Below, one piece after another: positions 14,923 through 57,692 of a stretch of 64,000 bases of DNA; the stretch's first letter is position 1; every line of letters starts with the position of its first letter. The translations under genes and the position numbers were made by a program. The notes under the pieces are model-generated. The model was not told the origin of the DNA and made no database searches. It saw only the letters and a program-made list of their open reading frames with translations. This DNA comes from Aeromicrobium sp. Leaf245. GTDB taxonomy: Bacteria > Actinomycetota > Actinomycetes > Propionibacteriales > Nocardioidaceae. The DNA is taken from assembly GCF_942548115.1 (NCBI RefSeq), contig NZ_OW824151.1, positions 3,162,001-3,226,000 on the forward strand, read 5' to 3'.

Positions 14923-16041
14923 ATGGCTGAAGACGTGAAGGTTCACCACGGGCTCGAGGGCGTCATCGCTTTCGAGAGCGACATCGCCGAGCCCGACAAG
15001 GAAGGGTCCGCGCTGCGCTACCGCGGCGTCGACATCGACGACCTCGTCGGCCGCGTGCCGTTCGAGAAGATCTGGGGCCTCCTGGTCGACGGCCACTACG
15101 AGCCCGGCCTGCCGCCCGCCGAGCCGTTCCCCATCCCCGTGCACTCCGGCGACATCCGCGCCGACGTGCAGAGCGCCATCGCCCTCACCGCTCCGGCGTG
15201 GGGCCTTCGCCAGCTCTACGACATCGAGACCCCCGAGCAGGTCCGCGAGGACCTCTCCCGCACCGCCGTGATGATCCTGTCGTACGTGGCACAGGCCGCC
15301 CGCGGCGTCGGCAAGCCGATGGTGCCCCAGGCCGTCATCGACGAGCAGGCCACCATCGTCGAGCGGATGCTGATGCGCTGGCGCGGCGAGGTGAACCCCG
15401 ACCACGCCAAGGCGATCGACGCCTACCTGGTCTCGGCCGCCGAGCACGGCATGAACGCCTCCACCTTCACCGCTCGCGTCATCGCCTCCACCGGTGCCGA
15501 CGTGGCCGCAGCGCTCTCCGGTGCCGTCGGCGCCATGTCGGGCCCGCTGCACGGCGGTGCCCCCTCGCGCGTGCTGCACATGATCGAGCAGGTCGAGAAG
15601 TCCGGCGACGCCGAGGCCTACGTGAAGAACCTCCTCGACTCCGGCGAGCGCCTCATGGGCTTCGGCCACCGCGTCTACCGCGCCGAGGACCCCCGTGCCC
15701 GCACGCTGCGCCGCACCGCCAAGGAGCTCAACGCCCCCCGCGCCGAGGTGGCCGAGGCGCTCGAGCAGGCTGCACTCGCCGAGCTGCGTGCGCGCCGCCC
15801 CGACCGCGTCCTCGAGACCAACGTGGAGTTCTGGGCCGCGATCGTGCTCGACTTCGCCGAGGTGCCGCCGAACATGTTCACCGCGATGTTCACGTCGGCG
15901 CGCACCGCCGGCTGGAGCGCCCACATCCTGGAGCAGTACAACAAGGGCCGCCTGATCCGGCCCTCGTCGGTCTACACCGGCCCCGACCCCCGCAGCGCCG
16001 ACGAGGTCGAGGGCTGGAACGAGGAGTGGGCGAAGGGCTGA
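14923..16041 (+). CDS. citA: Citrate synthase 2
   Basis: A 372-residue type II-like citrate synthase of the short actinobacterial form. It condenses oxaloacetate with acetyl-CoA at entry to the TCA cycle. SAAEHGMNASTFTARV (about 167-182) carries a substrate-binding His, MSGPLHGGAPSRVL (about 205-218) the next, and GFGHRVYRAEDPRA (about 246-259) a third His with the CoA loop; FAEVPPNMFTAMF lies near the C-terminus. The protein lacks the N-terminal beta domain of E. coli GltA. The TCA link to sdhCAB at the other end of the window is functional, not operonic. Confidence 0.95.
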   Translation: MAEDVKVHHGLEGVIAFESDIAEPDKEGSALRYRGVDIDDLVGRVPFEKIWGLLVDGHYEPGLPPAEPFPIPVHSGDIRADVQSAIALTAPAWGLRQLYDIETPEQVREDLSRTAVMILSYVAQAARGVGKPMVPQAVIDEQATIVERMLMRWRGEVNPDHAKAIDAYLVSAAEHGMNASTFTARVIASTGADVAAALSGAVGAMSGPLHGGAPSRVLHMIEQVEKSGDAEAYVKNLLDSGERLMGFGHRVYRAEDPRARTLRRTAKELNAPRAEVAEALEQAALAELRARRPDRVLETNVEFWAAIVLDFAEVPPNMFTAMFTSARTAGWSAHILEQYNKGRLIRPSSVYTGPDPRSADEVEGWNEEWAKG

Positions 16042-29683: not shown

Positions 29684-30571
29684 TCAGCCGGCGATCTTCG
29701 AGACCCGCAGGAAGTCCTCGGCCAGCTTGGTGTTGCCGAGCGCGTTCGGGTGGGTCTTGTCCAGCGTGAACAGGTCGTCGAGGAAGCGGACCGTCACGTA
29801 GGTGAAGCCACGCTTCTCGGCCTCGCGCTTCTGCGCCTTCCACATCCAGGAGTGGACGCTGCGTCCGTCGGTGCCCCACGGCGTGGTCACGTAGACCTCG
29901 TTCGCCGGGATCCCCTCGGCCTTGCGCGCCTTGTCCAGCTTGGTCATGTAGTTGCTGATCGCCAGCTCCACCTGGGCGCGGGGACTCGTGACGTAGCCCT
30001 GCCCCTGACCCCCGCGGCAACGGTGGTAGTCGTTGCGGCCGGTGGCCACGATGATCTTGGCCGGCTTGATGCGCGCGATCTCCGAGAGCCGCTGGTCGAA
30101 GCGGGTGCCACCGCACTTGTTGCCGCGGGCCCACATGCCCGAGCCCGACTCGGCCGAGAGCACGGCCCGCATGTCGGCCTTGGCCGCGACCTTGGACCAC
30201 CAGCCCTGCGACGGCGACCCGGGCTGGTCGGAGAACCAGGCGCTGGTGGAGTCACCGAACACCAGGAGCGGCTCGCCCGGCGCCGGCGCCGAGGCGGCCC
30301 TGGCAGCCTTGCTGGCGGTGGCGGTGGGGGTCGGGCTCGGCTTCGGCGCACTCGTGGTGGGCGCGGGGGTCGGCGTCGGCTCCGCAGTGGGCTCCGGCTC
30401 CGCGGACGGCTCGACCTCGGTCGTCGGCGCGGGCGTCGAGACGGCCGCCGACGGCGTGGGGTCGGCCGTCGGCTCGTCGGAGATGGCGGGCACCGTCATG
30501 ACGGTGAACAGACCTGCGGTGACTGCGCCGACGGCAATCAGGTTCTTCGTGAGCGCGCGCGCGTCGAGCAT
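29684..30571 (-). CDS. Secreted SGNH/GDSL-family hydrolase
   Basis: A 295-residue protein with an N-terminal hydrophobic segment (about 10-32), a Pro/Thr/Ala/Glu linker (about 33-97) and an SGNH hydrolase domain. The blocks are present: LLVFGDSTSAWF with the nucleophile Ser, SGSGMWARGN with the Gly, VATGRNDYH with the Asn, and LDKTHPNALG with the Asp-x-x-His. Such enzymes act as esterases, often on acetylated surface glycans. The PT-rich linker indicates display at or beyond the cell wall. GGGAAAG precedes the ATG. The substrate is unknown. Confidence 0.88.
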   Translation of the reverse strand: MLDARALTKNLIAVGAVTAGLFTVMTVPAISDEPTADPTPSAAVSTPAPTTEVEPSAEPEPTAEPTPTPAPTTSAPKPSPTPTATASKAARAASAPAPGEPLLVFGDSTSAWFSDQPGSPSQGWWSKVAAKADMRAVLSAESGSGMWARGNKCGGTRFDQRLSEIARIKPAKIIVATGRNDYHRCRGGQGQGYVTSPRAQVELAISNYMTKLDKARKAEGIPANEVYVTTPWGTDGRSVHSWMWKAQKREAEKRGFTYVTVRFLDDLFTLDKTHPNALGNTKLAEDFLRVSKIAG

Positions 30572-30697
30572 GTGTCTTTCCCAACCCCGAGATGATCGTG
30601 ACGGTCAAGGGTCACACATGCTCGCTCGTGCGCGTCGGGGAGCACACGAAGATGGTTCGATCGGACTAGTAGGCGTCGGGGCGCAGGTGCCCAGACG

Positions 30698-30741
30698 CGA
30701 CGAGACCCTGGCCATCCCCCCGAACGGCCAGGGTCTCGTCG
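30698..30741. terminator. Strong 16-bp hairpin downstream of the repeat-peptide gene
   Basis: CGACGAGACCCTGGCC (30698-30713) and its exact reverse complement (30726-30741) enclose a 12-base C-rich loop. It stands 74 bases after the stop of the small secreted peptide gene (minus strand) and upstream of the SGNH gene, so a terminator or processing hairpin is likely. There is no T-tract. The loop sequence CCATCCCCCCGA recurs at 30752-30763. Confidence 0.6.
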
Positions 30742-30814
30742 TGTGTGATGGACCATCCCCCCGAGATGCTCCACCGTCCGGCCCGTCCCCCGACAGGCCG
30801 GAAGTCTCAGTGCG

Positions 30815-31054
30815 TCATGCGGCCGCCACCGTGGTGAGGGGCTGGATGCCGTCGGTGTCGAGCGGCTGGATGCCGTCGGTGTCGAGCGGCTGGATGCCGT
30901 CGGTGTCGAGCGGCTGGATGGCCTGGGTGACGAGCGGCTGGATGCCGGCCTGGGACGCTGCCTGCGCGGTGGCCGGCACGAGCACCAGCGACGCGGTGGC
31001 CGCGAGCACGGCGACGCTCGAGGCGATCACCCTGCGCGTGCGGATCGTCGTCAC
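30815..31054 (-). CDS. Small secreted peptide with five GIQPL-type octapeptide repeats
   Basis: A 79-residue protein. Residues 1-32 are a clear signal peptide (basic start, hydrophobic core, ATAQA cleavage site). The mature part of about 47 residues is almost entirely five eight-residue repeats: GIQPLVTQ, AIQPLDTD, GIQPLDTD, GIQPLDTD and GIQPLTTV. It has no Cys and no membrane segment. The GTG at 31054 follows AAAGGA at ten bases. I do not recognise a family. Exported repetitive precursor, signalling peptide or wall-associated peptide are all possible. It stands alone with its own upstream CTAG-rich region and a strong hairpin after it. Confidence 0.75.
   Translation of the reverse strand: MTTIRTRRVIASSVAVLAATASLVLVPATAQAASQAGIQPLVTQAIQPLDTDGIQPLDTDGIQPLDTDGIQPLTTVAAA
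30840..30959. repeat. 24-bp tandem repeat within the secreted peptide gene
   Basis: Five tandem 24-bp units encode the octapeptide repeats. The three at 30840-30911 are identical at every base including third positions; the two at 30912-30959 have diverged. Perfect identity implies recent expansion or gene conversion. Confidence 0.95.
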
Positions 31055-31100
31055 TCCGGAGTCCTTTCGTCCATCCCCTTGGTCACAGGAGACTACACGG

Positions 31101-31132
31101 AACTAGTTCTTTAGGACTAGACCTGACTAGTC
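31101..31132. promoter_or_regulatory. CTAG-rich region upstream of the secreted peptide gene
   Basis: Three CTAG tetramers lie within 28 bases, two inside perfect palindromes (AACTAGTT at 31101-31108 and GACTAGTC at 31125-31132). They are centred 47-77 bases upstream of the GTG at 31054. CTAG is rare in bacterial genomes, so an operator or promoter element is plausible; no factor can be named. Confidence 0.35.
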
Positions 31133-31236
31133 ACTCTTTTGTCCGGTCCCGTGTCGGGACCTTCGGCGCCCGGAACCGGGCACGGCGGTGACTCGCCCGG
31201 ACCGGTGGCGTCCGTCACGTCTCGTAGGGTGGACCG

Positions 31237-32028
31237 GTGACCACCGCCGAACTCGCCCGCGCAGCCGCGGAAGCCCTCGCCGACCGCACCGACGGAGCGA
31301 CCCACGACGTCGCCCTCGTGATGGGATCGGGCTGGCTGCCCGCCGCCGACGCCCTCGGGACCCCTGACCACGAGATCGCCCTGGCCGACCTGCCCGGATT
31401 CAGTGCACCGGCGGTCGCCGGCCACGGCGGCACGGTGCGCTCGGTCAAGATCGGAGAACGCCGCGCCCTCGTGTTCCTCGGGCGCACGCACTTCTACGAG
31501 GGCAAGGGCGTGGCGGCCGTCGTCCACGGCGTCCGGACCGCGGCAGCAGCCGGCGTCCGCACCGTCGTGCTCACCAACGGCTGCGGCGGGCTCGACCCCA
31601 GCTGGACGCCCGGCACCCCCGTGCTCATCAGCGACCACATCAACCTCACCGCCACCTCACCGATCGAGGGCGCGAACTTCGTCGACCTCACCGACCTCTA
31701 CTCCGCGCGCCTGCGGGCCCTGTGCCGCGAGGTCGACCCCTCGCTCGACGAGGGCGTGTACGTGCAGTTCCCCGGCCCGCACTACGAGACGCCCGCCGAG
31801 ATCGCCATGGTGCGTGCCATCGGCGGCACCCTCGTCGGCATGTCGACCACGCTCGAGGCGATCGCGGCACGCGAGGCCGGCATGGAGGTGCTCGGACTCT
31901 CGCTCGTGACCAACCTCGCCGCCGGCATCTCCGGCGAGCCCCTCAACCACGAGGAGGTCCTCGAGGCCGGCAAGGCGGCCGCGAGCCGCATGGGCGCCCT
32001 GCTCGCCGACATCATCCCCCGGATCTAG
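31237..32028 (+). CDS. punA: Purine nucleoside phosphorylase (trimeric type)
   Basis: A 263-residue purine nucleoside phosphorylase of the trimeric PNP/MTAP family. It splits inosine, guanosine and their deoxy forms with phosphate to base and (deoxy)ribose-1-phosphate. [12 protein letters not shown] holds the phosphate-binding Ser, [10 protein letters not shown] the conserved His, [13 protein letters not shown] (about 178-190) a substrate Tyr-Glu region, [14 protein letters not shown] the ribose Met, and [10 protein letters not shown] the base-binding Asn. TAGGGT at 31225-31230 is six bases before the GTG, indicating a leaderless start. It precedes the sugar phosphomutase by 56 bases on the same strand. 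Confidence 0.95.
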
Positions 32029-44371: not shown

Positions 44372-44547
44372 GGTTCGTCGCGTCCTCCGGTTGCGCCTCC
44401 TCGGCCCAGCCTGACCTGCGGCTGCACACGTCCGGCTGAGTCCCGGCCCGCGGCTGCGCGGTCTCGGGCGGGCCTTTGCCTGCTGCTGCGCCGTCCGGCT
44501 GGGTCCTCTCCTGCGGCTGCGTCGCTGTGAGCCCGAGTGGGGTTGGT

Positions 44548-44814: not shown

Positions 44815-44842
44815 AGCAGGTCCAGTCGCAGCCACAGCGACG

Positions 44843-44970
44843 CAGCACCGAGCGAAGGCCCAGCCGAGCCAGCGCAGCACCGATCGAACGCCCAGACGAG
44901 TCAGCACAACACGCAGCGAAGCTCAGACCGAGTCAGCGCAGCACCGAGCGAACGCCCAACCGAAGCGACG
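44843..44970. repeat. Four tandem 32-bp units
   Basis: Contiguous 32-bp units start at 44843, 44875, 44907 and 44939, with consensus opening CAGCACCGAGCGAACGCCCA. Divergence is 20-35%. No unique spacers separate them. Confidence 0.8.
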
Positions 44971-45006
44971 CAGCAGCAGCCCCACGGCCCCCGTGCGGAC
45001 GACCGC

Positions 45007-57103: not shown

Positions 57104-57294
57104 TTCAAATCTGCAACGATCTCGGCGTCCTGCGGCTGCGGCTGCAGCGGGTCGGCCTCGACCTGCGGCTGCGCTGCTGCAGTCGGGCTCGACCTGCGGC
57201 TGCGCTGCTGCGGGTCGTCGTGGGTGCGGCCCCCGAAAGGCCTCGACGGAACAGAGGCTCTCCGCGCGGTCGAGCTCGCCGTCCTTCGCCCCCC

Positions 57295-57490
57295 CATCGG
57301 TGGATCCTCAACCTCAGGGACGGTCCTGCGGTTGAAGATCCACCCATGACCGGCGGGTCACCCCCATCGGTGGATCCTCAACCGCAGAAAGCGTCCTGCG
57401 GTTGACGATCCACCGATGACGAGTCCGGACCGGCTCGGGTGGTGGATCCTCAACATCAGGAAGCGTGCTGCGGTTGAGAATCCACCGATG
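57295..57490. repeat. Three tandem family B hairpins
   Basis: Copies at 57295-57348, 57365-57418 and 57441-57490. Each has arms with GGTGGATCCTCAAC and GGTTGANNATCCACC around an eight-base loop; loops differ in sequence (GGACGGTC, AAAGCGTC, GAAGCGTG). The middle copy has nearly the same arms as the one at 33725-33778. Confidence 0.9.
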
Positions 57491-57499
57491 ACGGCCCGC

Positions 57500-57692
57500 G
57501 CGGTGCGTTCTCCACCGATTCCCCGCCCGAGCGGTGCGTTCTCCACCGGTTCCCCGCCCGAGCGGTGAGTTCTCCCCCGATTCCCCGTCCGGGCGGTGAG
57601 TTCTCCACCGTCTCGGCGCCGAGACGGTGGAATCTGCACCGCGCAGCCCTGCCGGTTGGTCCATTCGGTGGAGAAGTCACCGCTCGAGGGGG
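57500..57692. repeat. 31-bp tandem repeat with palindromic centre
   Basis: Units start at 57500, 57531, 57562 and 57593 (exact 31-base period; core GCGGTGNGTTCTCCACCG). The last unit runs into a perfect 28-bp palindrome (TCCACCGTCTCGGC and its complement, 57604-57631). An inverted unit follows at 57664-57692. Confidence 0.85.

Follow-up and report, generated by a model that had tools for sequence, protein, structure and literature searches.

One transcript on the minus strand of this DNA may carry two products: a short open reading frame (ORF) for an exported peptide built of GIQPL repeats, and a run of conserved 3' hairpins with G-rich loops. We tentatively propose that a structured RNA gene has here come to hold a clade-specific, secreted, multi-copy peptide ORF between its promoter and its hairpins, which would make it a possible dual-function RNA. 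The window, by which we mean the whole stretch of 64,000 nucleotides that was analysed, belongs to the genome designated G000; the other genomes bearing the ORF are G005, G028 and G127. The features of the locus are listed below.

30815..31054, minus strand: peptide ORF of 79 aa with a GTG start, probably an exported GIQPL-repeat peptide
30959..31054, minus strand: signal peptide, residues 1-32, recognised by eye
30836..30946, minus strand: five xIQPL repeats (GIQPLVTQ, AIQPLDTD, GIQPLDTD, GIQPLDTD, GIQPL)
31062..31068, minus strand: ribosome binding site GAAAGGA, for which G005, G028 and G127 have GGAAGGA
31090..31095, minus strand: candidate -10 hexamer TAGTCT, on our own reading; TGTAGTCTCCTG is identical in all four genomes
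31100..31133, minus strand: three CTAG-centred palindromes or near-palindromes, TGACTAGTCA, GGTCTAGTCC and GAACTAGTTC, a putative operator overlapping the promoter
30695..30806, minus strand: conserved 3' element (H3, H2, H1), 96-97% identical in G005, G028 and G127
30778..30801, minus strand: hairpin H3, from folding, with a GGGG loop flanked by UC and GA
30749..30773, minus strand: hairpin H2, apical CAUCUCGGGGGGAUG, the same apical letters as in the genus-wide hairpin
30698..30741, minus strand: hairpin H1, a 16-bp stem (20 pairs with wobble), apical GUUCGGGGGGAU

The GIQPL-repeat peptide and its homologues

The original prediction described a tiny secreted repeat protein, and the ORF was found to be real: it is read from the minus strand as MTTIRTRRVIASSVAVLAATASLVLVPATAQA followed by ASQAGIQPLVTQAIQPLDTDGIQPLDTDGIQPLDTDGIQPLTTVAAA, a product of 79 residues with five xIQPL repeats. 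The signal peptide, which had been judged a good one, shows by eye a basic start, a hydrophobic core and an AQA-A site, and an AxA-like site was also seen on inspection of the homologues. Tandem Repeats Finder places the array at 30836-30947 with a period of 24, 4.7 copies and 92% matches, and its score of 189 ranks second among 33 rows. Within the ORF the longest exact direct repeat measures 57 nt and recurs at a spacing of 24, whereas 300 dinucleotide shuffles reach no more than 13 (mean 8.6); therefore 81 nt (3.4 units) are perfectly periodic, in line with the claim that three 24-bp units are identical at the DNA level. Elsewhere in the window, dense tandem and inverted repeats with units of 31, 62 and 70 bp were noticed at 57129-57629, among them GTGGATCCTCAAC and its inverse GGTTGAnGATCCACC, and two neighbouring arrays of degenerate 32-bp tandem repeats are located at 44415-44521 and 44836-44975.

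The mature part contains no Cys, Trp, Tyr, Phe, Lys, Arg or His, and in four of the sequences its pI is 4.05 with zero basic residues. Cysteine, a membrane segment and any known domain had been noted as absent, and this agrees with our searches. Pfam gave no match to the ORF at E<=1, NCBIfam gave nothing near its cut-off, and no sorting signal, lipobox or second hydrophobic segment was seen by eye in the product. The AlphaFold model is of low confidence (mean pLDDT 56, pTM 0.14) and mostly coil, with a single helix at residues 4-19.

Searches of ~5.8 billion proteins with the single sequence, an alignment and the mature part as queries returned four homologues only (P0001-P0004), the alignment-based search scoring the best 7988 candidates by shared words. 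These are P0001 (68 aa), P0002 (75 aa), P0003 (68 aa, AERYTH_12590 of Aeromicrobium erythreum) and P0004 (58 aa, still in frame and retaining two GIQPL), and all named homologues are from Aeromicrobium. All four retain the frame, the signal peptide and 2-4 invariant GIQPL units set among variable spacers. Our five-sequence alignment (A1) shows four invariant GIQPL blocks, whereas the numbers of residues between IQPL units are 4/4/4/4 in the window, 4/4/4 in P0001, 5/4/5 in P0002 and 3/3/5 in P0003. The prediction was to be given up if no relative had a homologue with a signal peptide and repeats, or if strains differed by broken frames. Such homologues exist, repeat number varies from 2 to 5 across the family and the differences in length are in frame with no frame breaks, so the prediction has held as far as genomes allow it to be tried. 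The ORF is almost certainly real and homologous to those of the relatives, and its product is very probably exported.

The same prediction left a choice between a pheromone or multi-copy peptide precursor and a wall-associated spacer, and the alignment favours the first of these. A wall or surface spacer would be a disordered acidic tract coating the envelope with its repeat number free to vary, and the low-confidence, mostly coil model, the varying repeat number and the lack of cysteine are all consistent with it. However, a structural repeat would keep its period, and here GIQPL is kept while the spacing is not, which is the reverse of what a spacer needs; a spacer or structural repeat is therefore disfavoured. 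The missing Pfam domain, sorting signal, lipobox and second hydrophobic segment also stand against it, as does a mature part of merely 30-47 residues (by eye), and we consider it quite improbable. A multi-copy peptide precursor or a multivalent ligand fits better. A signal peptide (by inspection) is followed by a repeated identical unit, and GIQPL is somewhat likely to serve as the functional unit. Among the nearest genes we saw none for a receptor, a protease or a maturation enzyme. These genes encode PNP, a GDSL hydrolase, a phosphomutase (PGM), an aldo/keto reductase (AKR), a PLD-domain protein and a secreted nuclease-type protein; a neighbouring protein nicknamed 'MceA-like' has no Pfam match.

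A DNA pattern together with tblastn on G000-G036 covered 44 of the 49 genus genomes (all except G404-G408), and the ORF was present in four of the 44, all in one clade. Among 391 genomes of the order, a DNA pattern of two repeats occurs in four (G000, G005, G028 and G127), which belong to one of 40 genera. With tblastn, weak matches to the ORF at E<=1 were obtained in 48 of 58 relatives, and among the 20 loci inspected from these the GIQPL array was found only in L001-L003. Across genome contigs the two-repeat pattern gave at least 117 stretches, among which L079 (Aeromicrobium sp. CnD17-E) and L164 are genes of the GIQPL kind; on in-frame inspection the remaining stretches were judged to be chance IQPL runs. 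As the contig pattern was written with fixed codons and its count of 117 stretches is a lower bound, the GIQPL gene is probably, though not certainly, lacking in other genomes. Among the matches listed there was no publication on a GIQPL peptide or on a comparable RNA from Aeromicrobium.

A PNP tree built from 30 of the 47 PNP loci groups the four ORF-bearing genomes together with support of 98/96. A single gain of the ORF would be the simplest history; since the tree is unrooted, the ORF could also have been lost elsewhere. Pairwise comparison of G005, G028 and G127 gave 0 nonsynonymous and 0-1 synonymous differences in the mature part (over ~33 synonymous sites), and 3-5 nonsynonymous and 1-2 synonymous differences in the signal peptide. 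The PNP dS is 0.14-0.29 among these three genomes, and therefore the repeat part is conserved down to its silent sites; between G000 and the other ORF-bearing genomes it is 0.44-0.51. Such silent-site conservation may reflect a constraint at the RNA level or a recent exchange. The conservation of the frame, the signal peptide, the GIQPL units and the ribosome site (the last from the four genomes whose DNA was read) points, indirectly, to selection on a translatable ORF, as would be expected of a dual-function RNA.

Upstream region and downstream hairpins in the window clade

The ribosome site and the CTAG-rich upstream region that had been predicted are both present, the former as GAAAGGA at 31062-31068 and the latter as CTAG at 31103, 31117 and 31127, three of the 14 CTAG in 64 kb. 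The promoter block and the 3' element were sought in all 49 genus genomes. A 23-nt pattern, GTCTAGTCCYAAAGRACTAGTTC, written from the ORF-bearing genomes themselves, has exact matches only in G000, G005, G028 and G127, while TAGTCT also occurs in several ORF-free versions of the element. A sigma-70 consensus scan of 30550-31260 found no promoter. We suggest that the CTAG palindromes may act as the operator for the promoter of the ORF.

The sole terminator-like site in 30550-31260 by the T-run consensus falls within the CTAG block on the plus strand, where a terminator-like hairpin with a T-rich tail at 31115-31132 points towards PNP. In G000 a pattern derived from its two best CTAG sites finds only those two with up to 3 mismatches. 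A second CTAG block is located at G000:C1:2368866-2368888 (L285), ahead of a secreted CAP-domain protein (PF00188), and the counterpart CAP-domain genes in G005, G028 and G127 (L284, L286 and L288) carry a CTAG box by eye. If the dual-function proposal is true, there would be a small CTAG-marked set of secreted proteins.

Downstream, one strong 16-bp hairpin had been predicted. It is present at 30698-30741 as H1 but is one of three, as H2 and H3 adjoin it; the prediction missed these two as well as the conservation of the element across the genus. The ~111 bp that follow the ORF match at 96-97% identity in G005, G028 and G127, and 82 nt (30695-30776) are identical in all four ORF-bearing genomes. 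At E<=10 the 3' element has matches in every one of the 49 genus genomes, the best in the other 45 being short (E 0.003). The sense strand folds into three hairpins with G-rich loops at -89.7 kcal/mol, versus -56.7 +/- 3.8 for shuffles (z -8.6), and the antisense strand also folds well (-69.8 kcal/mol, z -6.8). One pair of H3 is G-C in G000, A-U in G005 and G.U in G028 and G127. Conserved structure beyond the ORF was observed both in the window clade and in ORF-free relatives. No T-run following a GC-rich hairpin, as in an intrinsic terminator, was found at H1-H3 by the consensus scan, and in the window every Rfam family stays below its gathering score. We established no partner RNA for the G loops; UCGGGGGGA is the stretch that we name for RNA target prediction.

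A probably related element without the reading frame

The H2 loop pattern, CRTCTCGGGGGGAYG, has a no-mismatch match in 30 of the 49 genus genomes, with one exact match per genome in 28 of them, and the match was judged to be a hairpin in 29 of the 30. Dropped as non-hairpins were the match in G386 and a second match in G029. As the pattern fixes 13 of the 15 apical letters, the loop invariance in the collected set follows from how the set was chosen. In the 25 ORF-free genomes of this set no ORF was seen by eye between the CTAG site and the hairpin, and CTAG occurs within 190 nt upstream of the hairpin in 24 of the 25, where the local density would lead one to expect 0.06. We noticed a second upstream type in L241, L246, L258, L268 and similar loci, with GTCAAGACTGCAC lying a few tens of bases after the CTAG site.

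The neighbourhood of the hairpin is largely shared. Citrate synthase lies convergent downstream within 6 kb in 26 of the 29 genomes and MeaB upstream in 22, and AKR is found downstream in nine, which include all four ORF-bearing genomes. The three genomes with no citrate synthase within 6 kb are G000, where it lies at 14938-16032 of the window, ~13 kb from AKR, and two in which the contigs are short. PNP and PGM take the place of MeaB as left neighbours in the four ORF-bearing genomes. In G000 the hairpins are parted from AKR by a GDSL hydrolase gene (29684-30571, minus strand), and in G005, G028 and G127 the hairpins face AKR directly, followed by citrate synthase.

At the same locus in 17 genomes with no usable pattern match, a hairpin with a variant G-rich loop was found in seven (G025, G011, G379, G404, G089, G006 and G021) and none in ten. 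CTAG occurs within 190 nt upstream in six of these seven, and G011 has three variant-loop hairpins in a row. The element was thus seen in 36 of the 46 genomes examined at the locus, 32 without and four with the ORF; G406, G015 and G017, which have no citrate synthase match, fall outside this count and hence it covers 46 of the 49.

Twenty-six ORF-free hairpins were aligned, with three window-clade hairpins left out and G127 never in the set. In this alignment 98.1% of the cells pair and seven of the twelve pairs vary at both positions, a signal that is lost when the partner is shifted by 1-3 columns; one of five covariation measures, that of further pair types, was reached by 49 of 500 shuffles. 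Read on the promoter-to-hairpin strand, the hairpins hold 12 G.U versus 0 A.C cells and six other mismatches. Eight of the 12 G.U cells belong to one pair, at which the dropped non-hairpin match in G386 has A-C. The compensatory changes support the predicted helix, and the G.U versus A.C counts support the predicted strand, mainly through that one pair.

The strand counts bear on the 6C RNA, which is widespread in Actinobacteria and has C-rich loops (PMC9569102). On that explanation the hairpins would be its Aeromicrobium version on the plus strand and the peptide gene merely convergent. The Rfam 6C model does score 30.2 bits on the plus strand at 30701-30786, a match that is one of two at E<=1, and this strand has three loops with C5-C6. 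The score is nevertheless below the gathering score of 47. A genus scan found no 6C above the cut-off, which is a weak negative, as it also missed the 30-bit site of the window, and none of the 14 control genomes, among them C. glutamicum, gave a score at the cut-off. As indirect evidence against a plus-strand RNA, the G.U cells of the ORF-free relatives and the H3 G.U of G028 and G127 fall on the minus strand, which also folds better than the plus strand. At locus L002 the AKR stop is close to H1 (by eye) and so leaves little room for a plus-strand promoter. We regard a plus-strand 6C RNA as very unlikely. It was set aside. Other loci hold the best 6C-like matches in the genus, and at least one of them (L180) has a terminator-like T-run. 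Two-hairpin 6C-like candidates were observed below the cut-off in L182, L183 and L185 (G018, G102 and G006; 40.7, 37.5 and 33.2 bits), each adjoined by a similar GTACTTTTGC stretch.

Whether the hairpins of the window belong to the genus-wide element was examined with R1, a covariance model of the 26 ORF-free hairpins built without those of the window clade. Among 149 sampled genomes of the family, 21 genus members score 51-63 bits; G000 scores 27.7 bits (E 0.0097), G005, G028 and G127 fail at E 0.01, and matches of up to 36.8 bits come from 11 genomes outside the genus. With filters off, the top two places in every one of the four ORF-bearing loci are H1 (27.7 bits) and H2 (25.0 bits), both on the sense strand, and the next best place has 15.9 bits. 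As 25-28 bits lies under the 36.8 bits seen outside the genus, R1 alone does not separate these hairpins from background. Descent from the genus-wide element is instead argued from the identical apical letters, the upstream CTAG site and the citrate synthase/AKR neighbourhood, and on these shared features a single origin seems probable.

The strongest rival to a structured RNA gene with an inserted ORF is an ordinary small secreted-protein gene whose 3' hairpins form a well-kept, possibly bidirectional terminator or an mRNA stabiliser with no role in trans. Terminators are expected close behind the stop codons of convergent genes, and in the relatives the hairpins do sit between such genes; the H1 stem is a perfect 16 bp, and the weak R1 scores would allow the hairpins of the window a separate origin. 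Yet no T-run terminator-like site accompanies H1-H3, and the clade keeps three hairpins where one suffices, with 82 nt unchanged in four genomes. In the ORF-free genomes, moreover, the stems vary with compensatory changes, the exact loop match is held at one per genome in 28 of 30, and by eye there is nothing to terminate between the CTAG site and the hairpin. A plain secreted-protein gene with such hairpins is conceivable, if doubtful.

A proposed transcript with two products

In the mechanism that we prefer, with a structured RNA gene holding the peptide ORF, a promoter under the CTAG palindromes would drive a minus-strand transcript. Its 5' part would encode a small protein exported by the Sec route, and cleavage after AQA would leave a disordered, acidic peptide of 47 residues with five xIQPL motifs. 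GIQPL would act as the functional unit, most likely of a multi-copy or multivalent extracellular ligand and not as a structural repeat. In the 3' part, three hairpins with G-rich loops would form a structured RNA related to the genus-wide element that has CTAG sites and hairpins but no ORF, and one clade would have acquired the peptide ORF between its promoter and its hairpins. Counting against this proposal are the weak R1 scores, the lack of a consensus promoter, the ten of 17 further genomes that show no such hairpin, left neighbours (PNP, PGM) unlike those of the ORF-free genomes, the absence of receptor, protease or maturation genes next to the ORF, and the fact that in the relatives the hairpins closely follow the stops of convergent genes. 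Action of the RNA part in trans is rather unlikely. A bolder version, to which we give little credence, is that a genus RNA whose G-rich loops are of the kissing type and mirror the C-rich ones of 6C and RNAIII became the messenger of a GIQPL signal, so that one CTAG-controlled transcript might signal inside the cell as RNA and outside as peptide.

Should the proposal be correct, the 32 ORF-free genomes and the clade of four would offer a natural before-and-after series of a peptide gene arising inside a regulatory RNA, and the element would be a new Aeromicrobium RNA, lying below every Rfam 15 gathering score. Even if the hairpins only terminate, the invariant GIQPL in a changing exported peptide is a clear candidate for a new extracellular signal or ligand.

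Among known systems, the alpha-factor of yeast is a multi-copy peptide precursor. The protein described here resembles a precursor of that type in having a signal peptide followed by invariant short units with variable spacers, and differs in that no conserved protease site was seen between the units and no receptor or processing enzyme was found beside the gene. The 6C RNA (RF01066) is similar as a set of actinobacterial stem-loops whose loops carry runs of one base, whereas the favoured strand here has runs of G and the score is below the cut-off. In S. aureus Newman, srn_9343 is described as a small RNA locus that encodes a secreted peptide, with a strain-specific organisation and a proposed role as a toxin-antitoxin system (PMC5496865). 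The encoding of a secreted peptide at a small RNA locus is shared with our proposal; the one-strain organisation and the proposed toxin-antitoxin function are not, and the abstract on srn_9343 mentions no repeat peptide. RNAIII of Staphylococcus aureus is described as a dual-function regulatory RNA (PMC11237564). The transcript proposed here would resemble it in combining a structured regulatory part with an ORF for a small extracellular peptide. RNAIII also encodes delta-hemolysin and its loops are C-rich, whereas the loops here are G-rich, the phylum is another one and the dual function is a proposal; no sequence relation is claimed.
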